Below, piece by piece: positions 46,120 to 59,410 of a stretch of 64,000 nt of DNA. A program made the position numbers and the translations under genes. Source of the DNA: Calditrichota bacterium. GTDB taxonomy: Bacteria; Calditrichota; Calditrichia; Calditrichales; Calditrichaceae. Below the pieces are notes generated by a model. It was not told where the DNA came from, searched no databases, and saw nothing but the letters and a program-made list of their open reading frames with translations. The number at the start of each line of letters is the position of its first letter. Position 1 is the first letter of the stretch. The stretch is taken from the NCBI GenBank assembly GCA_024278755.1, contig JAJRSO010000035.1, forward strand, positions 1 to 64,000. Reading direction: 5' to 3'.

Positions 46120-47103
46120 TTATTCTCCTCTGAAATAACGCATAAACTGAACACGCTCATAAACGGCCGGGTCTTCCGACTTGCTTTGACTCATCTTGCC
46201 TCTAAAATCATTGAGGGAAGCAAAATTATGACGATCCATCCAGCTTTCCAATTCCTCCAGCAGGTTCTGTAAATAGGATTTATTGTTTTTATACAAGGTC
46301 GATACAACCTGAACCGAACTAGCGCCGGCAAGCAGTTGTTTAATCACGGCGGCCGCATCATGAACGCCTGTGGATGCGGATAAGTCACATTTAACCCGTT
46401 CGGACATAATGGCAATCCAGCGCAGCGAAATGGATAATTCTTCCGATTTGCTTAAAACGTGCGTAGAAGTCAACTGAAAATTCTCAATGTCAAAATCAGG
46501 GCTCCAGAAACGATTGAATAAAACCAGACCGTCGACACCGGTTTCGGACAGGTTTTGAATAAAAGGACCCAGATTAGACGAATAGTGGCTGATTTTCAGA
46601 GCAACCGGAATGGTGACCCGTTCTTTAACCTTGTTGGCCAGATCAAAATAAATCTGCTCATTTTCTTCGGCGGTTTTATGAAAATTCGTCGGCAGGGCAA
46701 ACACATTCAGTTCCAGGGCGTCGGCGCCGGCCGCTTCAAATTTCTGTGCATAGTAAAGCCATTCATGCGCAGACACACAATTGATGCTGGCAATCACCGG
46801 AATGGATACCGCCGCTTTGGCCTTTTCAATCAGTTTGATGTATGCGCTAAGATTTTTCTCTTTGATTTTGTAATCGTAGTAATCAAAGGCCGACGCATCA
46901 AAACCCTCTTTTTCTGCGCCTTTTACTTCATGTTCCATTTCATGCAGAATTTCTTCTTCGAAAATGGATTTAAGCACAACGGCGCCTGCGCCGAATTTTT
47001 CCAGTTCTTTAATATCTTCTACAGAATCGGTTAATCCGGAACTGCCCACAATAATGGGATTACGCAGGTCCAGTCCTAAATATTTGGTTGCCAGATTTGC
47101 CAT
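46120..47103 (-). CDS. Dihydroorotate-dehydrogenase-like FMN protein
   Basis: The protein has 327 residues with a TIM-barrel FMN fold of the DHODH/PreA type. It starts LATKYLGLDLRNPIIVGSSGLT, with SIPVIASINCVSAHEWL, GADALELNVFALPTN, VALKISHYSSNLG and SASTGVHDAAAVIKQLLAGA. The active-site segment does not match a canonical class 1 enzyme closely, so true dihydroorotate oxidation is not proven. It is 108 bases after the ferredoxin/GltD-like gene with a good ribosome site (AAAGGAAG). PreA-PreT enzymes pair a similar FMN protein with a GltD-like protein, so a functional link is plausible. Confidence 0.8.
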   Translation of the reverse strand: MANLATKYLGLDLRNPIIVGSSGLTDSVEDIKELEKFGAGAVVLKSIFEEEILHEMEHEVKGAEKEGFDASAFDYYDYKIKEKNLSAYIKLIEKAKAAVSIPVIASINCVSAHEWLYYAQKFEAAGADALELNVFALPTNFHKTAEENEQIYFDLANKVKERVTIPVALKISHYSSNLGPFIQNLSETGVDGLVLFNRFWSPDFDIENFQLTSTHVLSKSEELSISLRWIAIMSERVKCDLSASTGVHDAAAVIKQLLAGASSVQVVSTLYKNNKSYLQNLLEELESWMDRHNFASLNDFRGKMSQSKSEDPAVYERVQFMRYFRGE

Positions 47104-47211
47104 TTTATCTTCCTTTGTCTATCTAAAATCTCTTAAAAAACCAAAATTGGAAATTGGGAATTAAGAATGAATTGAATGCGAGTTCCTGATTCCTGTTTCC
47201 CAGTTATTATA

Positions 47212-48984
47212 TTACTCATCCAGTAAAAAATGCGTAATGCCTTCTACCGCTTTAACACCGTCGGCAATGGCGCTGATGGCATCCGCCGTACGGTTCACAC
47301 TGTCGCCACCCGCAAAAATATCCGGAATTGAGGTTTGCTTCAGTTCATTTACAACCATACGGCCGCGCTCGATTTTCAATTCATCCATAACGTCTTTCGG
47401 CAGGAAGGAGTAATCCGCTTCCTGTCCGATAGCGCCGATAACCGTATCCACTTCCAAAATATGCTCGTCGCCTTCAATCAAAACCGGACGCGGACGGCCG
47501 CCTTTATCATCGGCAACCATTTCGGCCATACCATATTTAATGGATTTTACCTTGCCATTATTCCCGATCACTTCCAGCGGAATGCCTTGCGGGACGATAT
47601 GAACGCCTTCATCCTCGGCGCCTTCGATTTCTTCCCAGTCGGCCGGCATATCCTGAACGCGGCGGCGATAGAGAATGGTCACTTCCGCCCCGAGACGGCG
47701 GGAAACACGAGCCGCGTCAATAGCCACATTACCGCCACCGATAACAACCACCTTTTTACCCACATCCACGCTTTTACCCAAATTCACGTCACGCAGAAAA
47801 TCAACGGCCTGAATGGAATTTTCCAACTCTTCGCCGGTTAAGCCCAGTGTGTACGGAATATGAAACCCTATACCGATAAATACGGCGTCGTTTTCTTTAC
47901 GAATGGTTTCAAATGAAATGTCTTTTCCCACGCGGGTATTGTTCACCATCTTCACGCCAACTTTTTCCATATAACCAATCTGTTTATCCAGACTGTCTTC
48001 CGGAAAACGGTACTTGGGAATACCGGCGTAGGTCATACCGCCCATTTTGGGCAAGGCTTCGTAAATAGTTACCTCAAAACCGCGCAGCGCCAGATAATAT
48101 CCGGCAGAGAGCCCTGCCGGACCGCCGCCGACAATCCCTACTTTTTTACCATTCGGTTCGGCAATGACCGGATTTAAGATGGCTGCCGGATCCGGGAATT
48201 GTTCGGTGGCAAATCGTTTTAACCAGCGAATGGCAATCGGTTCGCCGAGATGACCGATGGCACAAACGGTTTCGCACTGACGGGTACACACTTTACCGCA
48301 CATTTCCGGAAGCGGATTATTATCATAAATATATTTTAAGGCTTTGGCGTCATCGGCGTCGGCAATGGCGCCAATATATTCGGGAATATGCATATGATCC
48401 GGGCAGGCGGTGACGCAAAGCGCACAGTCCACACAGCGGGTGGCTTCGGCGCGAGCTTCTTCCTGCATATAGCCCAGCACCACTTCGGCAAAGGATTTCA
48501 CCCGTTCCGCGCCGTCCAACTCCCGCATCGGAACACGGTCAAATTGCAGCAGCGGTTCGCTGTCGCTTTTAACAAAACTGATATGCTCTTTCATTTCGGG
48601 ATTGTCTTTCCCCGGAATAAGCAGATAGGAATCGGGATCGGGCGACGTATGCAGATATTGATCGGTTAAACTGAGCGAACCGGTCGGGCACATGTCCACA
48701 CATAATCCACACCAACAGCAGCGTCCGTTGTCCACGCGCGGGCGCAAACCGGAATCGCCCTTGGCCGCTTCGATTCCGTCTAACTGAATCATATCAATCG
48801 CGTCGTTCTGGCAAATGGTACTACAGGTGCCGCAGCCGATACATTCTTCCAAATCATTGAAATGGAATCCACGGTAACGCTGGGCCGTATCTTTTTTCTC
48901 GATCGGGTAACGTACCGTATGTGGTTTTTTACCTAAAAACTTTAATGCGGAAAAAGGAACCAGAGCGCCTTTTATGTTCATCAT
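47212..48984 (-). CDS. NuoI/MbxN-like ferredoxin fused to GltD/NfnB-type flavoprotein
   Basis: The protein has 590 residues. Residues 1-125 look like the NuoI/MbhN/MbxN subunit: HTVRYPIEKKDTAQRYRGF followed by two 4Fe-4S motifs, Cys48-51-54-58 and Cys89-92-95-99. Residues 180-590 look like the small subunit of glutamate synthase: a further CxxCxxCxxxCP (Cys184-187-190-194) and MCGKVCTRQCETVC (Cys229-233-237-241). An FAD site (VGIVGGGPAGLSAGYYLALRG) and NAD(P) site (VVVIGGGNVAIDAARVSRR) follow. The first ATG pair follows AGGCAAG. It would connect NAD(P)H, through flavin and clusters, with the membrane complex encoded upstream. I know of no standard complex with this fusion. Confidence 0.88.
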   Translation of the reverse strand: MMNIKGALVPFSALKFLGKKPHTVRYPIEKKDTAQRYRGFHFNDLEECIGCGTCSTICQNDAIDMIQLDGIEAAKGDSGLRPRVDNGRCCWCGLCVDMCPTGSLSLTDQYLHTSPDPDSYLLIPGKDNPEMKEHISFVKSDSEPLLQFDRVPMRELDGAERVKSFAEVVLGYMQEEARAEATRCVDCALCVTACPDHMHIPEYIGAIADADDAKALKYIYDNNPLPEMCGKVCTRQCETVCAIGHLGEPIAIRWLKRFATEQFPDPAAILNPVIAEPNGKKVGIVGGGPAGLSAGYYLALRGFEVTIYEALPKMGGMTYAGIPKYRFPEDSLDKQIGYMEKVGVKMVNNTRVGKDISFETIRKENDAVFIGIGFHIPYTLGLTGEELENSIQAVDFLRDVNLGKSVDVGKKVVVIGGGNVAIDAARVSRRLGAEVTILYRRRVQDMPADWEEIEGAEDEGVHIVPQGIPLEVIGNNGKVKSIKYGMAEMVADDKGGRPRPVLIEGDEHILEVDTVIGAIGQEADYSFLPKDVMDELKIERGRMVVNELKQTSIPDIFAGGDSVNRTADAISAIADGVKAVEGITHFLLDE

Positions 48985-49013
48985 ATTTCTTGCCTCGTTT
49001 GTTTTCTTTTTTC

Positions 49014-49096
49014 CCCCTTAAAAAAGAGGGGTAGGGGGGTTGTAATGATTTTCTTAAATTAGAGGACAACCCCTGTCGTCCCCTTTTTTAAGGGGA
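49014..49096. repeat. CCCCCTTAAAA / TTTTAAGGGG-type intergenic hairpin repeat
   Basis: CCCCCTTAAAAAAGAGGGG is followed by TAGGGGGGTTG and, about 50 bases on, CCCCTTTTTTAAGGGG. Related patterns lie at 56812-56895, 61027-61070 and 61266-61315. It lies between the nuoD-like and fusion genes. Confidence 0.5.
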
Positions 49097-49204
49097 CATA
49101 ATTTCTTTATAATTCAAAATTCTAACTCTGTCAATATCAGCTTCCGTAACAAGTTTCCTGCGGAATGACAGATTGGATATTCCTATCCTTAAGCTCTTTG
49201 CGGC

Positions 49205-50320
49205 CTACCGTTCGATCTCCGGCGGACAGGTACCGAGACTGTTCATTATAAAACTTACATCTGCGATATTCATCCCCTTAAGCATCTTTTCCAGCAGGGT
49301 TACGCCGTGCACATATGCGGGCCCGCGGACGTGAACGCGTCGCGGTTTCAGGCTGCCGTCGCTTACCACGTAGTAACCAAATTCACCGCGGGCAGACTCG
49401 GTACGCACATAGGCCTCGCCGGCAGGCACTTTCCATTTAAGCGGATTGGGACCCGGATTGTGAACGGGGCCCTCGGGCATTTTATCCAGCACCTGACGTA
49501 CAATGGATATGGATTGTTCAAATTCTTTCCGTCTTACCATCGCCCGGGAATAGACGTCGCTGCCTTCGTGAGTGATGACTTCCCAATCCAGTTTGTCATA
49601 CACCTCATATGGTTCGTCTTTCCGCACGTCGCGGGCAATGCCGCATCCGCGCAACGGAGGACCGACAACGCCCCACTCTTCGGCCTTTTCTTTGTCGATG
49701 ATGCCAACGCCCTGCGCACGTTTCAGAAAAACGGCATTTTCAAACAGCAGACGGTCGTAATCGGTTAAACGCTCTTCGAGATAATCCAGCACTTTGCGAA
49801 CTCGGTCTTTAAATCCATCCGGCAGGTCACGGCGCACGCCGCCGGCCCAGATGTACATGTGATAGACACGACCGCCTGTCAGTTCTTCAAATAGATCGAT
49901 GATGTAATCACGATCGCCCACCGTCCACTGCGGCATGGTGTACAAACCGGCAGAACCGGACTGTCCACCCATCCATAATAAATAGGTCGCCATCCGCGAT
50001 AATTCCAGCACCATAGTGCGAATATATTGTGCCCGTTCCGGTACTTCCCTGCCTTCGATTTCCTCGATGGCACGAGCCAGATTTTCTTCATTGGGATCGG
50101 GTTCCGGCACACAGATTCGGCAGACAATGGGAAAGCACTGCATCCAAAGCCGTTCTTCCATCAGCTTTTCAAAGCCCCGGTGCAGATAGCCTACATGGGT
50201 AGTTCCTCTTTGTACCGTATCGCCGGTAACCTTCAGCTCAATCATCATATTTCCGGTAATACCGGGATGCTGCGGACCGAGATATAGAGTTGTTTCTTTT
50301 TCTTGCATTATTTCTGACAT
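49205..50320 (-). CDS. NuoD/hydrogenase-large-subunit-like protein with CxxE motifs (Mbx type)
   Basis: The protein has 371 residues, homologous to complex I 49-kDa subunits and group 4 NiFe hydrogenase large subunits (LGPQHPG near the N-terminus; GGQSGSAGLYTMPQW; RTESARGEFGYYVVSDG). In hydrogenases two CxxC pairs bind NiFe. Here the first region reads RIC-VP-E (Cys70, Glu73) and the last GTC-PP-E (Cys365, Glu368), so each keeps the first Cys and has Glu in place of the second. The complex I quinone-site His (HPxxHG) is also missing (HPGITG). It is therefore neither a standard hydrogenase nor a quinone reductase; the catalytic site resembles Mbx/Mbs types at best. Confidence 0.9.
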   Translation of the reverse strand: MSEIMQEKETTLYLGPQHPGITGNMMIELKVTGDTVQRGTTHVGYLHRGFEKLMEERLWMQCFPIVCRICVPEPDPNEENLARAIEEIEGREVPERAQYIRTMVLELSRMATYLLWMGGQSGSAGLYTMPQWTVGDRDYIIDLFEELTGGRVYHMYIWAGGVRRDLPDGFKDRVRKVLDYLEERLTDYDRLLFENAVFLKRAQGVGIIDKEKAEEWGVVGPPLRGCGIARDVRKDEPYEVYDKLDWEVITHEGSDVYSRAMVRRKEFEQSISIVRQVLDKMPEGPVHNPGPNPLKWKVPAGEAYVRTESARGEFGYYVVSDGSLKPRRVHVRGPAYVHGVTLLEKMLKGMNIADVSFIMNSLGTCPPEIER

Positions 50321-50481
50321 AGGGTTAGCCTAATTTTAAGTTTTTTATTCATATTAATAAATCACAATTTTAAAATGCCAAATAACAAATAAATTCCAAC
50401 TCACAAACTCAAAATCTCAATTATTTTTGCAACTGATAATTGGAAATTGGTTTTTGGGAATTGCTTGTCATTTGTCATTTG

Positions 50482-51051
50482 TCATTTACTATCCTTAAAG
50501 TGTGGTACTTCCGTATCGTATTGTTTGGCAATGGTCTCCCGGACATCCTGTTTATCTTCGCGACCTTTACGCCATTCATAGGTTTTATCGACAAATTCGC
50601 GGGTATGAAAGTCCCGGCGCATGGGCGGCATATCTTCCCAGTCTTCCAGAATAAAATCACGCATTCCCGGATGGCCTTCAAAATCGACGCCGTTCATTTC
50701 ATGGATTTCCCGTTCGTAGGTTTCGGCCTGATCCCATAATTTGGAGATGGACTGCATCACAGGTTTTTCCCGTTCCAAACGCACTTTTACCATAATATGC
50801 ACCTTTTGCCGGTAGGACCAAAGATGGTAGACAATCTCAAATTAATTATCTTCTAACCAGTCCACACAGCTCATCATGACCAGATGCTTAAAATCCAGAT
50901 ATTCTTTTAAATAGCTGACAAAAGCCGGCAAAATACCACTGCGGAATTCAACAATAATCCGTCCCTGCCGTTGGATTTTTACCTTGGCCGAACGGAAAGC
51001 GTTGTTAATACTTTGTCTTATTTCTTCTTCGATAATAAATTTGTCGCTCAT
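50482..51051 (-). pseudogene. NuoC/MbxK-like subunit interrupted by one in-frame TAA
   Basis: Two frames, 50842-51051 and 50482-50802, are in the same reading frame. Between them, after MMSCVDWLEDN, a TAA (50844-50842) precedes FEIVYHLWSYRQKVHIMVKV, which is standard NuoC sequence (usually EFE-VYHL). One base change, GAA to TAA, explains it. The second half contains ETYEREIHEMNGVDFEGHP and the RDF motif, as in NuoC. Without the stop the product would be 189 residues, right for the subunit. Causes may be a sequencing error, a real nonsense mutation, readthrough, or restart at GTG 50802. Confidence 0.85.
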
Positions 51052-51154
51052 AAATTTACTCTTTTAATTATTGGCGCTTAACGGTTAGCTGTCAGCATGC
51101 AGCAATCAGTAATTAAATTTAACCGATAGCTGTTTACTGATAGCTGATAGCTAA

Positions 51155-51697
51155 TTACCAGTTATAATCCGGCATTTTCCAGTTTGTAATTACTTTTTTC
51201 TGATTGGCGCGATAGGTATCCAGATTTTCTTTATATTTAACCCAACCCTGCGCGGTTCCGGCATCAATTAGTTTTTGCAGTTCAATAAATCCGTCAATGA
51301 CCGCTTCCGGACGCGGCATGCATCCGTTAATAAAAATATCCACCGGCAAATAATCATCCAGACGTTTAATGGTATTGTATGAGTCCCAGTACATTCCTCC
51401 GTTAATGGTACAGGAGCCAAAGCCCATAACATATTTGGGCGACTGCATCTGTTCGTAGGTCCGGATAACCCGTTTTAGGGTTTTTACGGCCAGATAGCCC
51501 GTAATCAACAGCACATCGGCCTGGCGCGGCGTGGCGCTTCCGGTAATTCCAAACCGTTCGGCATCGTAACGGGACGTCATGGTCGGCGGAATTTCAATAG
51601 CCCCACAACCGGTTCCATAGGCCAATACCCAAAGTGAATGCTTTCGCGCCCATTTGGAAATAATATTTCCCGCTTCTTTTCCCCAGTCTTCTTTCAT
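51155..51697 (-). CDS. NuoB/MbxJ-like 4Fe-4S subunit
   Basis: The protein has 180 residues. It is the small subunit that carries the cluster nearest to the catalytic site. Typical features are TPRQADVLLITG, GFGSCTINGGMYW and VDIFINGCMPRPEAVIDG. Cluster ligands seen are Cys31 (GTGCGAIE), Cys96 and Cys126. Complex I has two adjacent Cys in the first motif (CCAIE) and group 4 hydrogenases have CxxC, whereas this protein has only one there, so the fourth ligand is missing or unusual. It lies between nuoC- and nuoH-like genes in the Mbx order. Confidence 0.92.
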   Translation of the reverse strand: MKEDWGKEAGNIISKWARKHSLWVLAYGTGCGAIEIPPTMTSRYDAERFGITGSATPRQADVLLITGYLAVKTLKRVIRTYEQMQSPKYVMGFGSCTINGGMYWDSYNTIKRLDDYLPVDIFINGCMPRPEAVIDGFIELQKLIDAGTAQGWVKYKENLDTYRANQKKVITNWKMPDYNW

Positions 51698-51789
51698 ATT
51701 TATCCTAAAAATAGTTGTTAAATTCTTTGTTTACAGTTCCCAGCCGTTAATTTTTCCTGGAAATTAGGAATTCGCTCTTGGCAATTTTA

Positions 51790-52692
51790 TTACAATAACA
51801 CCAACAGAAAGCCCGCCAGTCCAATCGCGGTCGGCCATTTCCAGAAAAAAGTCATAGCCTGTTCGGTACGAAAACGCGGATTTACAATCCCCACAAAAAG
51901 CGGGATCAGATAAAAGGCAAATGTTTTAACCAGCAGAATGGCAAAATTGGTTGCGCCACCGAGAAACAGATCCACATAAAGCACCAGCTTCACAAAAGCA
52001 AACATACCGCGATTTGTCTGCATCAGGGCCAGATATTTCCCGCCAAATTCCGAAGGCGGACCGGAGGCGATTTCTGCTGGGGCAAACGGCACGTCAAAGG
52101 GTTTATTGCCCATCATTCCCAGAAAGGCGAACATAGCCGCAACAAAAGCAAACGGCGACTGGAAGATATTCCAGTGCATAAAACTGTCCTGCGCCGCGAT
52201 AATGTTCTGGACGGAGGTGGTTTCGTTTTGCACCATTAAGGTAACCAGCGCGATAACAAATGGAATCTCATAACCGAACATTTGTGTTAAACCACGGCTG
52301 ACACCGATAGCGGAGTTTGGATTCCCAGATTGTCCGGCGCCCAGCGCCATGGCGAGACAGCCAAACACCATAATGTATAAAATGAGAATTAGATCGCCCT
52401 GAAAGCTGAATAATGAAATGGCGTTCTCTCCCACCAGGACGGGAACAAACATCAGGGTCGAAATCGTTCCGGTAATGGCAATATTCGGCGCCAGATGAAA
52501 CATAACGCCATGCGTAATAGCCGAACGTTTCGAATACAGTTTGATCACATCCACCACATTCTGAAAAATAGGCGGGCCATAACGGTGCTGTACCCGGGCA
52601 ATTATTTTTCGTCCGATACCCATATAGGTAAGCCCAACTAACGACCCGATGAAGGGCATAACGATTATCCAGATGATGCTTAATATATCCAT
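51790..52692 (-). CDS. NuoH/MbxM-like membrane subunit
   Basis: The protein has 300 residues and about eight membrane helices. It anchors the peripheral arm to the membrane arm. The typical RVQHRYGPP loop near residues 33-41 (complex I: R-x-GPN type), the acidic cytoplasmic loop with FDVPFAPAEIASGPPSEFGG, and charged residues inside helices are visible. Hydrogenase and Mbx versions have the same RYGPP form. It lies directly between nuoB-like and mrpD'-like genes. Confidence 0.92.
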   Translation of the reverse strand: MDILSIIWIIVMPFIGSLVGLTYMGIGRKIIARVQHRYGPPIFQNVVDVIKLYSKRSAITHGVMFHLAPNIAITGTISTLMFVPVLVGENAISLFSFQGDLILILYIMVFGCLAMALGAGQSGNPNSAIGVSRGLTQMFGYEIPFVIALVTLMVQNETTSVQNIIAAQDSFMHWNIFQSPFAFVAAMFAFLGMMGNKPFDVPFAPAEIASGPPSEFGGKYLALMQTNRGMFAFVKLVLYVDLFLGGATNFAILLVKTFAFYLIPLFVGIVNPRFRTEQAMTFFWKWPTAIGLAGFLLVLL

Positions 52693-52894
52693 AAAAGATC
52701 CTATTTTCTGTTTCCCTTTTTCAAGAACCTATCGAAAAGTTCTGTTGACCTTGTTTAAATTATAACATCCGTTAATTTAACCACTTTTTTTAGCCCTTTG
52801 TTTATCAACGCCCGTTAAAAATTTCCTTCGGAACGACCTCCCGTATACAACTTCTGCCTCAGCAGCGGGGCGCCTTTTTTCGAAAAGGGATTCC

Positions 52895-54751
52895 TTATAC
52901 CAGAAAATCCTTCACTAAAAATAAAAAGGCCAATGCAATTACCACAAACAGCGCATAGGTTTGTCCGTTTCCGGTGTACACATAGCGCATCACATCGAAA
53001 AGGCCTTCCAGATTATCGGCCAGGCTTGCGTATATTTTACTGACGCTGCGTTTCAAGAAGATACTAACGCCGCGGGCAAAAGGCTGGTAAAAATCAACCG
53101 CATAGTGCAAATTAATTTCTTCTCCGGGAACCTCACCGCTGGTATGAATATCTTTTAAACCGACTTTACGCGAACGTTTATACAGGGTATTAAACAGGAT
53201 AAACACAATAAAAAATACTACGGCTACGATATTCATAACCGTTATTGTGCTTACATTTCCGTAACTGTTAAACAACATGGAATGGCTTAAATCAAAAGGC
53301 GCTATCCCCATATACACCTGAGCCTGGTTAATTAAATCCAATAATTGATAGGGATAAAAACCAAGATAAACCGTTAACAACGCTAAAATTAGCATGGGGG
53401 CGCGCATCATCCAGGGCACTTCTTTAACCTCGTCAAACCGTTTGGGACGTTGCCCCAGAAAGATGGTAAAAATAATCCGGTACAAGTACAGGAAGGCAGC
53501 AGTGCTGGCCCCAAAAGCGACCACGGCAAGAAAAATCAGGTGTTTTTCAATCAGAGCTTCGTATATCAGCCATTTACCGGTAAATCCTGATAAAGGCGGC
53601 ATACCGGCAACGGTGATAATACCAAGCAGCACTACGAAAAACGTATAGGGCATCCGTGTAATCAGGCCGCCCATTTCGCTCAGCTTCCGCGTACCGGTTC
53701 TGTAAAAAACGGCGCCAACGGCTAAAAAGAGCATGCCCTTAAAAATAGAATGGTTTACGGCCTGATAGAGTCCGGCGGTTACGCCCATGGACGACGAAAG
53801 AGAGAAACCTAAGATAATATACCCCAACTGCCCGATAGAGGAATAGGCCAGCAATTTTTTCGCATCATCCTGCACAATGGCTTTAAACGTGGCAAGTAAT
53901 GCGGTAATAGCGCCAAACCAGGCTAAAATATATCCCGGCAGAGAAACCCCCTGGATAGTTATTACACTGGAGGCTAATTTACCTGCGCCAAAGACGAAGA
54001 AGAGCAAAGCTAAACCATAAATACCCATTTTGGATAAGGCGCCGGAAAACAACGCCGTAAACGGAGCCGGCGAAATTGTATAGGCGTCGGGCGCCCAGGT
54101 ATGTAAGGGCATCATGGCCGCTTTAACGGCAAAACCAATCACAAACAACACAAACAACCAAATCTGTAAAGTAAGGCTGAAGCCACTCCAACCCGCAGAA
54201 AGGACATCAAACAAAAAGCTTCCCAATTGTGCATAGACGATTAAAAGCGCCGTTAACATAGCATAGGCGCCAATCATACTCATCACAAAATACCGGAGTC
54301 CGGCCGCCTGCGCTTCATAACGGTAATAAATAACCATTAAAAAAGAAGACCAGGTCATTATTTCCCAAAAGAAAAAGAAGGAGAGCAAATCGCCGCTAAC
54401 CACGATTCCGAACATACTGGCTACCGTTATACACATAGCAAAGCAGTAAAAATCAACCCGTTCTTTACCTTTCATATAAGAGCCGGAAAAGATGGCTGTT
54501 AAAATCGCCAAACCAAAGATAATCATTCCAAATAGCCAGGACAGGGGATTGATACGCCAAATAATATCAAACCCAAGCATTTTAAATGTAAAACTGCTCA
54601 GCGTGCCCTGCAATCCGAGAAACAGCCAGCCGGCCCAAATCAGGCCGACAATGGAGACGCCTACCTTAAGGATATAATTGAATTTTCCCACAAGGTATGC
54701 TAATACTGCGGCGCCAAATAAAATGCTTAAAATAAAAGGAATCGTTTCCAT
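52895..54751 (-). CDS. MrpD/NuoL-like antiporter subunit, long form (MbxH' type)
   Basis: The protein has 618 residues. It belongs to the NuoL/M/N-MrpA/D proton-pumping family, with 14-16 helices. Conserved features are WEIMTWSSFLMV (Glu in helix 5), MPLHTWAPDAYTISPAPFTALFSG and LLAYSSIGQLGYIILG. About 100 residues beyond the usual MrpD length give a soluble or amphipathic segment and one extra helix at the C-terminus, as in MbxH'. It would form the second ion-translocating module of the complex. Confidence 0.9.
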   Translation of the reverse strand: METIPFILSILFGAAVLAYLVGKFNYILKVGVSIVGLIWAGWLFLGLQGTLSSFTFKMLGFDIIWRINPLSWLFGMIIFGLAILTAIFSGSYMKGKERVDFYCFAMCITVASMFGIVVSGDLLSFFFFWEIMTWSSFLMVIYYRYEAQAAGLRYFVMSMIGAYAMLTALLIVYAQLGSFLFDVLSAGWSGFSLTLQIWLFVLFVIGFAVKAAMMPLHTWAPDAYTISPAPFTALFSGALSKMGIYGLALLFFVFGAGKLASSVITIQGVSLPGYILAWFGAITALLATFKAIVQDDAKKLLAYSSIGQLGYIILGFSLSSSMGVTAGLYQAVNHSIFKGMLFLAVGAVFYRTGTRKLSEMGGLITRMPYTFFVVLLGIITVAGMPPLSGFTGKWLIYEALIEKHLIFLAVVAFGASTAAFLYLYRIIFTIFLGQRPKRFDEVKEVPWMMRAPMLILALLTVYLGFYPYQLLDLINQAQVYMGIAPFDLSHSMLFNSYGNVSTITVMNIVAVVFFIVFILFNTLYKRSRKVGLKDIHTSGEVPGEEINLHYAVDFYQPFARGVSIFLKRSVSKIYASLADNLEGLFDVMRYVYTGNGQTYALFVVIALAFLFLVKDFLV

Positions 54752-54859
54752 ATTTTTCCTAATTCAATCTGTTAGATTTTGAATAAATCCTTTGCAAAAC
54801 TAAAAACAAAGTACTTCTTTAAATCTCTGCGCTAACGTTTCACAAACTTAAAATTTCCT

Positions 54860-56332
54860 TTATAAACCAGCCGATAAAACTGCTTTTATATAAATTGATT
54901 TATCTATTAATTCCGCTGCCGCCGGTTTTAAATAGGTCATTACCAGGTCGGGATACAAACCGGTCACCAGGGTAATCAGCGCCAAAATAGACATAGCCAC
55001 CAGCGCAGATTTAGGAACATATTGAACCTTTGCGCCATCGTGCGGGGCCTTAAAATAAAGCCTTCCGACCACACGCAAATAATACACTGCTTCGATGATA
55101 CTGCCAAACAGAGCCAGGGTCGCAACAGCGATAAATCCATGGCTAATGGTTTCCGATAAAATAATAAACTTCGACCAGAACCCACTCAGAGGCGGCAAGC
55201 CCAAAATGGCAAACGCGCCAAAGGCAAAAAAGAAACTGAGCAGCGGTTTAACCCGGCCCATTCCGTCCATATCTTCTATGTTTTTACTACCGGAATAGAA
55301 TACAAGATAACCGGCAGAAAGGAAAAGCAGGGGTTTAATCATGGCATGGTTAAACATCTGAAACAGGCCGCCTTCCACACCCCGAGTTGTCGCCAGCCCG
55401 AGCGCGATAAGCACCAATCCCATTTGCCCAATGGACGAAAAGGCCAGCATTCGTTTGAGCTGTTTTTGACGAATGGCCGACATTTCGGCTATTAATAGCG
55501 TTATGATTCCGGCAATGAGAATAAAATGGAAAATGCCCTGAAAACTAAAGATGGTATAAATTAAACGCGCTAAGGCATATACTCCGGCCTTGACCACGAT
55601 ACCGCCAAAGGCCGCGCCGATTGGTGTTGGCGCCTGCGAATATGCATCGGGCGCCCAGCCGTTTAGAGGGAACATTTCCGCTTCGATTCCAAATCCGGTT
55701 ATTAAAAGGATTAAGGCCATAATCGCAATACGCGGATCTACATCTTTTAAACGAACGGCAATTTGCGCCATATTTAGCGTTCCGGTTGTGGCATAAATCA
55801 GGGCAATCCCCAAAAGAATAAATGTAGAGGCCATGCTTCCGATAAGCAGATATTTAAAGGCTGCTTCCGCACCGTCCCGGTCGCGCAGAAAGGCGGTTAA
55901 AGCATAGGATGAAATACTGGTAATTTCCAGAAAAACAAACAGATTAAAAATATCCCCGGTAAGTACCATTCCGGTGGCGCCTGCCGTAAGCAGTAAAAAG
56001 AGCATATGGTATTTTTCATTGGGCTCTTCTTCCACAAAACGGATATTGTAAACGGCAACCACAAAACCAACGAGAGAAATAATCAAAGCCAGTACATTTC
56101 CCAACGGGCCAATGGTCAAATTGATTCCCAGAGGCGGCGCCCAGGCGGCAATAATCACAATAACCGGTTTCACCATCGAATGCGGCAACAGCATAACCGT
56201 TTCGTACAAGTTAAAACCAATTATCAGAACTGGAACATATTTAACCAGGCCTTTGGAAATACGCGCCAGCGGTGGTATTAAAAAAGCCGCGAACAGGGGT
56301 AAGGCAATCATTAATACAGGGTCAAGATACAT
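54860..56332 (-). CDS. MrpD-like antiporter subunit (MbxH type)
   Basis: The protein has 490 residues, the normal MrpD/MnhD length. Conserved residues are in LFVFLEITSISSYALTAFL, PLNGWAPDAYSQAPTPIGA, GGIVVKAGVYALARLI and MLAFSSIGQMGLVLIALG. It carries proton or sodium channels in the membrane arm. Two MrpD copies next to each other are typical of Mbx, whereas Mbh has one; this supports the Mbx-like assignment. Confidence 0.92.
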   Translation of the reverse strand: MYLDPVLMIALPLFAAFLIPPLARISKGLVKYVPVLIIGFNLYETVMLLPHSMVKPVIVIIAAWAPPLGINLTIGPLGNVLALIISLVGFVVAVYNIRFVEEEPNEKYHMLFLLLTAGATGMVLTGDIFNLFVFLEITSISSYALTAFLRDRDGAEAAFKYLLIGSMASTFILLGIALIYATTGTLNMAQIAVRLKDVDPRIAIMALILLITGFGIEAEMFPLNGWAPDAYSQAPTPIGAAFGGIVVKAGVYALARLIYTIFSFQGIFHFILIAGIITLLIAEMSAIRQKQLKRMLAFSSIGQMGLVLIALGLATTRGVEGGLFQMFNHAMIKPLLFLSAGYLVFYSGSKNIEDMDGMGRVKPLLSFFFAFGAFAILGLPPLSGFWSKFIILSETISHGFIAVATLALFGSIIEAVYYLRVVGRLYFKAPHDGAKVQYVPKSALVAMSILALITLVTGLYPDLVMTYLKPAAAELIDKSIYIKAVLSAGL

Positions 56333-56448
56333 CTATTTTTCCTTTTATTTTCAGGCAGAGCGTTCAATTAAAATTCCATTTTTTCGATAACACAGTTTTT
56401 CATACAAGATACAAGTATGTATCGAAATACGGAGAAATGTTTAAACCG

Positions 56449-56790
56449 CTACCATTTTAATTCCCGGATTTTGTTGATGTTTAATGTTTTATGGTGGTCA
56501 TAAATTCGAATTACAATGGATAGTGCCAAAGCCGTTACAGCCACACCAATTACAATAGCGGTAAGCACCAGAGCCTGTGGCACCGGATCCACCATATCGC
56601 CGGCAGTCAGGGTCGGATTAGAAAATATTGGCGCTGTCTTGTCCTTAACATAGCCCAGAGAAACGAGTAATATATTCACACCACTATCGATAAGCGTCAA
56701 ACCTAAAACAATTTTAATCATATTCTTTTTTACCAGTACCGCGTAGATACCGATTAAAATCAAACTAATTGCCGCAACATAGTAAATCAT
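56449..56790 (-). CDS. MrpC/NuoK-like subunit (MbxG type)
   Basis: The protein has 113 residues and three membrane helices. Typical NuoK/MrpC sequence includes IGIYAVLVKKNMIKIVLGLTLIDSG in two parts and VDPVPQALVLTAIVIGVAVTALAL, with the buried Glu/Asp partly replaced. It helps to form the ion path next to MrpD. Confidence 0.93.
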   Translation of the reverse strand: MIYYVAAISLILIGIYAVLVKKNMIKIVLGLTLIDSGVNILLVSLGYVKDKTAPIFSNPTLTAGDMVDPVPQALVLTAIVIGVAVTALALSIVIRIYDHHKTLNINKIRELKW

Positions 56791-56811
56791 TTTTTCCCTT
56801 TAAAATTTTTA

Positions 56812-56895
56812 TTCCAACCTTCCTTTAAAAGGAGGGCAGTAGGTTGTGCCAAATCAAAAACACCCCCATAGTCCCCCTTTGATCAGGGGGAAACA
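56812..56895. repeat. CCTCC/GGGGG-type intergenic hairpin repeat
   Basis: CCTTCCTTTAAAAGGAGGG is followed by AGTAGGTTG and then CCCCCTTTGATCAGGGGG. This has the same general layout as 49014-49096, inside the operon between the MrpB- and MrpC-like genes. Confidence 0.5.
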
Positions 56896-56898
56896 ATG

Positions 56899-57585
56899 TT
56901 ATTTAACCGTCTGTAACATGGTATCCAGCAGGGCTGTAAGCTCGGCGCCTACCTTAAAACCCACGGCCACATAAATCAACGGAATCACGCCTGCGCTAAA
57001 CAGTGTATTTGCCGTGCCGAGCGGTAAAATGTTGGCCAGAAAACTGGAACCGTATGCCAATCCGAGTAAACCGATAATTACAAACACCGAGCCTGCCGAC
57101 GATTCTACTCTTGATAAGATAACATGGTTTACATGATAAGTTCGGTAAGACATAAACATCAGTAAAAAGCCGGATGCAATTATGGCGCCGCCCTGAAATC
57201 CGCCGCCGGGCGTCAGATGGCCGTGAATAAATACATAAGCGCCCAGAATAATAATAAGCGGAAAAAGAATCCGCGCTCCGGTTTTAACAATGACACTGGC
57301 ATTCTGACGCGCCCGTTCGGTGGGCCGTTTACTATATAATAAGGCGCCCATTCCGGTAGCGGCCAAAAACAAAACAGTCACTTCGCCCAGGGTGTCAAAT
57401 CCCCTGTAATTCACAACAATGGAGGTCACTAAATTCGCTGCCCCGGTTTGCTGCAATCCGTCCTGTAAGTATTTTAAACCGACCCCTTCCAACACTCTTA
57501 CCACACCAAAGGGAACCAGTAAAAACGTGGAAAGCAGATAATATCCTATAAATCCTAAAAATAACACGGCTATTGCTTTTCTCAT
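56899..57585 (-). CDS. MrpB-like subunit with MbhE-like N-terminus (MbhE-MbhF fusion)
   Basis: The protein has 228 residues. Residues 1-90 resemble MbhE (ANLVTSIVVNYRGFDTLGEVTVLFLAATG), and the rest MrpB/MbhF (AYVFIHGHLTPGGGFQGGAIIASGFLLMFM in two parts). In Mbh complexes these are separate genes. Its ATG overlaps the stop of the MbhD-like gene by four bases (translational coupling). It is part of the Mrp module that links ion transport to the redox arm. Confidence 0.88.
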   Translation of the reverse strand: MRKAIAVLFLGFIGYYLLSTFLLVPFGVVRVLEGVGLKYLQDGLQQTGAANLVTSIVVNYRGFDTLGEVTVLFLAATGMGALLYSKRPTERARQNASVIVKTGARILFPLIIILGAYVFIHGHLTPGGGFQGGAIIASGFLLMFMSYRTYHVNHVILSRVESSAGSVFVIIGLLGLAYGSSFLANILPLGTANTLFSAGVIPLIYVAVGFKVGAELTALLDTMLQTVK

Positions 57586-57821
57586 TCTTCCATTCTCCCG
57601 GTTCTGCGGATGGTAATCATAAAAATAATTGTAGAAAGACCGACGCCAATTGCGGCTTCGGTTAGGGCTACATCCGGCGCTTGCAATAAATAAAAATAAA
57701 TGGACGCAATCAGACTGACAACCGAACCGGAAATCACCGCGGCAACCAAATCTTTACTGCGAACCGTATTAAGAGCGCCGGCAATTAAAATAACGGTTAA
57801 TATGATAAGTAAAATATCCAT
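57582..57821 (-). CDS. MbhD/MrpB'-like subunit (DUF4040)
   Basis: The protein has 79 residues with about three short helices. The family segment SLIASIYFYLLQAPDVALTEAAIGVGLST in two parts contains the conserved APDVALTEAA. It corresponds to the last part of MrpA in multi-subunit Na+/H+ antiporters. Stop and start codons overlap both neighbours. Confidence 0.9.
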   Translation of the reverse strand: MDILLIILTVILIAGALNTVRSKDLVAAVISGSVVSLIASIYFYLLQAPDVALTEAAIGVGLSTIIFMITIRRTGRMEE

Positions 57822-58177
57822 CAGGCCGCCTCTTCTTTTTCTTCTGATTCCTGTACTGCTTTTTTATAGGCGTCGATATCCTTTTTCTGCCACATCTTAA
57901 TGCCAATACGATAACTTCCCCGGGCCAAAGCATGCGAACTGATAGGATTGGAAAGTAAAATAAACAACGAAATAATCAGTGTTTTTAAAAACCATTCCGG
58001 ATTTATCAGGCCAACTCCCATAATGGTGCCGACAGCACCAAGGGTGGTCGCCTTAGTACCGGCCTGCATCCGGTTATATACATCCGGCATACGTAAAATA
58101 CCCAGAGCGCCTAACAAAAGAAACAGAACGCCAAAACTTGTTAACACATATCCCGTATAATGCAAAGCGTCCAGCAT
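57821..58177 (-). CDS. MrpG-like subunit
   Basis: The protein has 118 residues with three helices. The MrpG motif GILRMPDVYNRMQAGTKATTLG is complete. A charged C-terminal tail (KKDIDAYKKAVQESEEKEE) extends into the cytoplasm. Start and stop overlap the neighbours by one base. Confidence 0.93.
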   Translation of the reverse strand: MLDALHYTGYVLTSFGVLFLLLGALGILRMPDVYNRMQAGTKATTLGAVGTIMGVGLINPEWFLKTLIISLFILLSNPISSHALARGSYRIGIKMWQKKDIDAYKKAVQESEEKEEAA

Positions 58178-58425
58178 TAAAGCCCCCCTTCCAGATAACG
58201 GGCAATAGTCAGTACCCCGACAAACCCCAGCACACCGTAAATAAGGGCAACGTCAATATAGATATAACGATGAAAAAACAGACCGAGCAGTACCAGCAGC
58301 GCTGTAGAAATAGTAGTCAGCGTATCCAGCGCGACAACGCGATCAGAAGTGGTAGGCCCCAGAATAAAGCGCACGGCTGCTAAAACAAGAGCCAAACCGA
58401 TAACGCCGAAAAATATATAAATCAT
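58177..58425 (-). CDS. MrpF-like subunit
   Basis: The protein has 82 residues and three helices, with the MrpF features RFILGPTTSDRVVALDTLTT and IYIDVALIYGVLGFVG. The ATG overlaps the MrpE stop by four bases. Confidence 0.93.
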   Translation of the reverse strand: MIYIFFGVIGLALVLAAVRFILGPTTSDRVVALDTLTTISTALLVLLGLFFHRYIYIDVALIYGVLGFVGVLTIARYLEGGL

Positions 58426-58910
58426 TCAAAAATCTCCTTAATGTATTTTTCGAACACAGCAGAGATTTCCCCAAACGTTTCCTGGGGATTTGTTGTGGTA
58501 ACATTTATCCAGTGAATGTAGAGTTTGTCTTCAATGACGTCTACCGTCAATGTGCCCGGCGTTAAGGTGATGGAATTGGCCAGCGCCAGTTTGGCAATAT
58601 TGGATTTAAGCTTGGTGGGCACTTCTACAATACCCGGGTCAATAGGCATTTTCGGACTAAGTACGCGTTTTGCCACATCCATATTGGCCTTAATCATTTC
58701 CCAAACAAACACAAACAGATAGCGGACTGTAAATACAATTTTCCGAAAAGACAGATTACTTAAACCACCTTCTGAAAATTGTTTTCCGGTATAGAACGCC
58801 ATAATAAATGCTACAACCGCACCGACTATCAACTCGTCGGTTTGCAGCGAGGTAGTAAAGGCTACCCAAAAAATAAAAAACACTAAAAAACTGTAAATAT
58901 ACCTGGACAT
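58422..58910 (-). CDS. MrpE-like subunit, first gene of the Mrp/Mbx-like operon
   Basis: The protein has 162 residues from the ATG at 58910 (MSRYIYSFLVFFIFWVAFTT). The frame extends to an ATG at 58967 but the extra part is charged and does not fit the family. MrpE features are TDELIVGAVVAFIMAFY, VFVWEMIKANMDVAKRVL, ANSITLTPGTLTVDV and YIHWINVTT. This is the first gene, so the operon promoter should lie in the AT-rich region after 58911. Confidence 0.9.
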   Translation of the reverse strand: MSRYIYSFLVFFIFWVAFTTSLQTDELIVGAVVAFIMAFYTGKQFSEGGLSNLSFRKIVFTVRYLFVFVWEMIKANMDVAKRVLSPKMPIDPGIVEVPTKLKSNIAKLALANSITLTPGTLTVDVIEDKLYIHWINVTTTNPQETFGEISAVFEKYIKEIFE

Positions 58911-59410
58911 CGTTTTTCCCGTTTCTTGTAATATCCTGCGCCATTTTGCAACAATTGTGCCGGACATTAAACACGATACAACTCCTTAATATTAAAGAAA
59001 TTAGTACTTGCATATTTTTAAATTCTAAATTTTAGATTCTAAATTTGTGAATTGTATCTTATTGTTTTTCTTTAAAATGGGGTGTTTTTTATATTTAAGA
59101 AATATAAACAGAATTATCATCAATAGGCAGCAGATATAAGCATATTTAATGGATTTTTTAATTATTTTTATGAAAACGGCTAAATATTGATAGATATCCG
59201 AGGGCATGTCCTAAATATTTCATCTATAAACCGCAGAATAAATCCCATAAATTGCAATAAATCGCAAAACTATTTTCATTTTTAGTAATTGTATGAATTA
59301 TTCAGCAGAGAAGAAAACGAATAGAATAATAAAACACCTTTATAAAACGAAATTCGAACCGTTTGGATAAGCAAGATAAAATACAAAATAATTTGCAGGC
59401 CATGTTCATT
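58911..59410. other. AT-rich gene-free stretch upstream of the Mrp/Mbx-like operon
   Basis: No coding frame is supported in these 500 bases. It should contain the promoter of the 14-gene cluster on the minus strand; no clear -35/-10 pair or operator could be picked out by eye. Confidence 0.5.

Follow-up and report, generated by a model that had tools for sequence, protein, structure and literature searches.

A lone in-frame TAA in the NuoC-like gene of an MBS/MBX-like operon in a Calditrichaceae draft assembly

In MBS-type complexes, by definition, the NuoB-like subunit has a three-cysteine proximal cluster and the NuoD-like subunit retains two of the four NiFe cysteines (PMC7684303). The type case is the membrane-bound sulfane sulfur reductase (MBS) of Pyrococcus furiosus, in which C28, C93 and C123 of MbsJ hold the catalytic three-cysteine cluster (PMC7684303), and whose operon includes an Mrp-type antiporter module. 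The NuoC of respiratory complex I (PF00329, TIGR01961) shares the domain family of the gene treated here. Besides these biological relatives, the interruption of that gene has to be compared with the nonsense variants and consensus errors of draft metagenome-type assemblies; a literature search for artefactual nonsense or G-to-T changes in such assemblies yielded nothing useful.

The window, that is, the whole stretch of 64,000 nucleotides analysed from contig JAJRSO010000035.1 of a Calditrichota bacterium (GCA_024278755.1), carries an operon that the first-pass annotation had pictured as that of complex I. This picture has to be corrected to an MBS/MBX-like one, as an Mrp-type module stands together with NuoB-, C-, D-, H- and I-like subunits (Table 1), and the best match of the NuoC-like protein among solved structures, by sequence as well as by fold, is chain K of P. 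furiosus MBS (6U8Y). The cysteines agree with this assignment, judged by spacing and motif rather than by structural alignment: those of the NuoB-like subunit are spaced as C28, C93 and C123 of MbsJ, and the NuoD-like subunit has C67 and C70 near its N-terminus and C365 near its C-terminus. Unlike the P. furiosus system, the operon is bacterial, its NuoI-like domain is fused to a GltD-like flavoprotein, a DHOD-like gene lies alongside, and the NuoC-like gene is interrupted by a stop. The remaining subunits had been described as intact, and indeed the frames of the NuoB-, D-, H-, L/M- and I-like and of the Mrp-type subunits are uninterrupted. As a separate observation, the DHOD-like gene shares only 76% identity with the corresponding gene of the same-genus genome, against 97% for the neighbouring genes, which suggests a paralogue or a replacement.

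Table 1. Location of the operon, of the interrupted gene and its parts, and of related features elsewhere in the same draft genome (G000). Positions without a prefix are those of the window.
Feature	Position	Strand	Remarks
MBS/MBX-like operon	46120-58967	-	Mrp-type, NuoL/M-, H-, B-, C- and D-like subunits, NuoI-GltD-like fusion
DHOD-like gene	46120-47103	-	
NuoI-like ferredoxin domain fused to GltD-like flavoprotein	47212..48984	-	Intact
NuoD-like (MbsL-like) subunit	49205..50320	-	Intact; PF00346
NuoC-like (MBS/MBX 30-kDa-type) gene	50482..51051	-	189 codons and stop, interrupted at codon 70; identified by PF00329, orthologue alignment and 6U8Y chain K
N-terminal part of NuoC-like gene	50845..51051	-	69 codons ahead of the TAA
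In-frame TAA, codon 70	50842..50844 (plus-strand numbering)	-	
C-terminal part of NuoC-like gene	50485..50841	-	119 codons past the TAA, constraint kept
Only sizeable ORF 3' of the TAA with its own possible start	50482..50802	-	GTG at codon 84, ATG at codon 87; from the ORF list
NuoB-like (MbsJ-like) subunit	51155..51697	-	Intact; only three cysteines (31, 96, 126)
NuoH-like subunit	51790..52692	-	Intact
NuoL/M-like antiporter-type subunit	52895..54751	-	Intact
Mrp-type module	54860..58967	-	All intact; D-, C-, B- (with MbhE domain), G- and E-type by profile, two further small ORFs unassigned
Complex I operon, apparently complete	L050 (G000 C41:40717-49999)		11 genes in the order nuoA-D, H-N, without nuoE, F, G; genes other than those for NuoC and NuoD named by inspection
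trpB-like (tryptophan-synthase-beta-like PLP enzyme)	L066:13395		TGA; Gly in 7/7 aligned relatives, GGA in 6
mglA (MglA-type GTPase)	L088:2822		TAG; GAA/GAG in 9/9 relatives
S9 peptidase	L064:9183		TAA; GAA in 3 closest homologues
OmpR-type regulator	L071:16540		TAA; GAA in closest homologue (74% identical)
PorV-like protein	L078:9325		TAA; GAA in 5/7 homologues

The single in-frame TAA, reported in the first-pass annotation as flanked by conserved coding sequence, is borne out by the reading frame, by a PF00329 match that spans the stop (112.7 bits, gathering cut-off 22.5) and by the alignment of orthologues. The same annotation had counted 39 bases of NuoC-like sequence after the TAA; the conservation in the same frame is real, but its extent was understated, since the open frame and its conservation run on over 119 codons, up to the natural end of the gene. 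The entire frame aligns with orthologues that are single genes, and thus the interrupted frame is not a product of chance. The gene is nonetheless not the NuoC of complex I proper: it reaches 92.0 bits against TIGR01961 (NuoC_fam), whose cut-off is 122.45 bits, and it belongs to an operon of the MBS/MBX type, while the genome encodes the NuoC of its complex I in another gene, at C41, whose product has 38% identity to the NuoC-like protein over 103 residues.

The search for orthologues covered 15 genomes of the family, the window's own included. A close orthologue is missing from some family members, and the five that were compared (G001, G004, G009, G007 and G011) are each one unbroken gene with 60-91% identity, both parts aligning over their full length; the highest value, 91%, is that of G001, a relative in the same genus. 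This comparison with close relatives, proposed together with the original observation, found no separate conserved pieces. Codon 70 is GAA in G001 and G011, CAG in G004 and G007, and CAA in G009, and a stop occurs there in none of the five; the TAA is therefore private to the window's assembly. The remark that TAA lies one base from GAA is supported by two of the orthologues, but CAA, also found among them, is equally one base away, so the ancestral codon is uncertain.

Constraint on the gene is the same on both sides of the stop. Against G001, at a synonymous distance of about 1, dN/dS is equally low before (0.057) and after (0.044) the TAA, which implies that the TAA arose very recently or is absent from the cells altogether. 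An old pseudogene is ruled out by these values together with the TAA being the sole lesion; neither relaxed constraint nor further lesions were seen in the comparison with G001.

The continuing constraint beyond the stop is also what readthrough would predict, whereby a suppressor tRNA or programmed readthrough carries translation across the TAA and yields a full-length subunit. Nevertheless, we consider this very unlikely. TAA, TAG and TGA all interrupt genes in this genome (see below), and all three terminate normal ones (257, 74 and 67 long ORFs, respectively), so that no single suppressor or recoding explains the set. Recoding of TAA in particular is rejected, TAA being the commonest terminator and TAG and TGA interrupting genes as well. 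The stop is not conserved in any relative compared, no single codon is reassigned genome-wide, TAA followed by T is a common context of normal termination in G000, and no suppressor tRNA was seen in the 64-kb window.

A subunit made in two pieces, with termination after codon 69 and a restart at one of the two possible start codons downstream, could draw on the 106-residue ORF that follows, on its possible start and on a weak ribosome-site-like stretch (AAGGTG, six bases 5' of ATG 87). A conserved split of this kind is refuted by the unbroken orthologues, and codons 83-87 are without a nucleotide difference in the same-genus relative, which marks the putative restart site as ordinary coding sequence. 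Furthermore, residues 70-83 would be missing from both pieces. In an AlphaFold model of the read-through protein (mean pLDDT 78 overall, confident to about residue 125), the stop falls on the first residue of a predicted strand (70-79) flanked by two others (56-65 and 84-93); a truncated protein, or one made in two pieces from either restart, would lack this strand. We therefore hold a two-piece subunit to be as improbable as readthrough.

The same kind of stop recurs elsewhere in the assembly, a draft of 3.94 Mb in 79 contigs, of which 1.17 Mb were scanned in stretches. A first codon-usage scan of 767 kb flagged 22 same-frame pairs; most of them are gene boundaries, and six, the NuoC-like gene included, are stops inside single conserved genes. 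The other five (Table 1) are unrelated to it, are interrupted by TAA, TAG or TGA, and carry stops found in none of their listed orthologues; in several of them the Pfam domains are intact on both flanks of the stop. We take two of the genes to be trpB-like and MglA, and Pfam assigns them PALP and Arf-type GTPase domains. Another candidate, OmpA-like (C12:12098), was dropped because its stop is shared by relatives and marks a gene boundary. A second pass brought the total to 1.17 Mb and added further probable cases, most of them in the next 400 kb: RlmD-like (L212:3021), PepT-like (L061:2967), BamD/TPR-like (L211:7733), presumably DUF2202-like (L201:8987) and YpdA-like (L214, near 11652). The RlmD-like gene is unbroken in five relatives, and the PepT-like gene matches unbroken solved tripeptidases across its stop. 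Probable in-frame stops also lie in two surface or outer-membrane-type proteins (L207:19710 and L072:8409).

Many of the flagged stops, in G000 as well as in the control genomes, simply separate two genes that share a frame. Over 741 kb of two related genomes, G006 (a single contig) and G009, the same scan gave only apparent gene boundaries, judged by inspection rather than against relatives, and no stop comparable to those of G000 was apparent. Six interrupted genes against none in similar amounts of sequence gives p of about 0.02 by our own arithmetic, a suggestive excess of private stops in G000.

Judged from the closest homologues, the change on the coding strand would be G-to-T in all five sister genes; the stop in the NuoC-like gene could be G-to-T as well if the ancestral codon was GAA, or C-to-T if it was CAA. 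Given the codon usage of the genome, G-to-T accounts for 20.8% of nonsense opportunities, and the probability of finding only this change is 8e-5 for six of six, or 4e-4 for five of five with the NuoC-like gene left out. Set against C-to-T only, G-to-T shows a weak excess (p = 0.08 with 6/6 and 0.12 with 5/5). 8-Oxoguanine gives such a G-to-T bias, either as damage in the library or as mutation in a repair-deficient lineage, and the apparent bias points to library damage or to a mutator.

Isolated stops of this kind occur in many unrelated genes of the draft genome and in none of the orthologues compared, and hence the likeliest source of the TAA is a wrong base or a rare variant in the assembly rather than a new mechanism. 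Of the four origins first proposed for the TAA, base error and fresh mutation are jointly strongly favoured by the unbroken relatives, by the absence of decay in either part and by the private stops of the same kind in unrelated genes, whereas readthrough is opposed and a conserved two-piece subunit refuted. Our preferred reading, with a probability of about 0.6, is that the TAA at codon 70 stems from an error in the consensus, from damage to the library or from a rare nonsense allele captured in the assembly. A single-base substitution in the assembled consensus would have created a nonsense codon in a gene under normal purifying selection, as one of the private nonsense substitutions scattered across the genome, most or all of them probably G-to-T on the coding strand. 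Damage to the library would be of the 8-oxoguanine type, and a rare allele would have entered the consensus where coverage was low. We infer a cause in the assembly or the library and not in the cells. As in nonsense variants and consensus errors of draft metagenome-type assemblies, the stops are isolated, private, confined to single codons, spread over unrelated genes and of all three kinds, but those of G000 differ in their apparent G-to-T bias. Three points weigh against this reading: a G-to-T-biased mutation in a real lineage would look identical; with nonsense set aside, the invariant columns of five genes hold 6 private missense changes in G000 and 8 in G001, and so give no sign of a flood of errors, in a comparison of low power; and a CAA ancestor would take the NuoC-like stop out of the G-to-T pattern.

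That the sequenced lineage really acquired the nonsense mutation, very recently and with loss or reduction of the subunit, is clearly less probable, though the leading rival. The loss would be tolerated because the MBS/MBX-like complex is needed only conditionally and complex I has an intact operon of its own in the genome, and the wider set of stops would reflect a decaying lineage or one with a G-to-T-biased mutator. Consistent with this are the biased spectrum of substitutions, the absence of a close orthologue from some family members and the complete-looking operon for complex I, whose own NuoC means that loss of the interrupted subunit would not abolish complex I. The first-pass expectation that such a loss would be surprising is thereby weakened. 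Against a real mutation, the MglA, RlmD-like and trpB-like genes are hit too, so that many conserved genes would have been lost simultaneously; in each of them one in-frame stop is the sole lesion observed; and the NuoC-like gene has no relaxed constraint on either side. That the lineage is a natural mutator with many fresh G-to-T nonsense mutations, in which conserved genes such as mglA and that of the MBS-like subunit have just been broken or are rescued in part by readthrough, seems improbable to us.

As a claim about NuoC, the TAA carries little weight, being one stop among many private ones in this assembly, and reads are needed for single in-frame stops in G000 before recoding, split subunits or gene loss are claimed. 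Under the preferred reading of an error or rare allele, the living population probably makes an intact NuoC-like subunit. The operon may encode a sulfane-sulfur or related reductase in the Calditrichaceae. Were the mutations real, the genome would exemplify the rapid accumulation of nonsense codons in nature.
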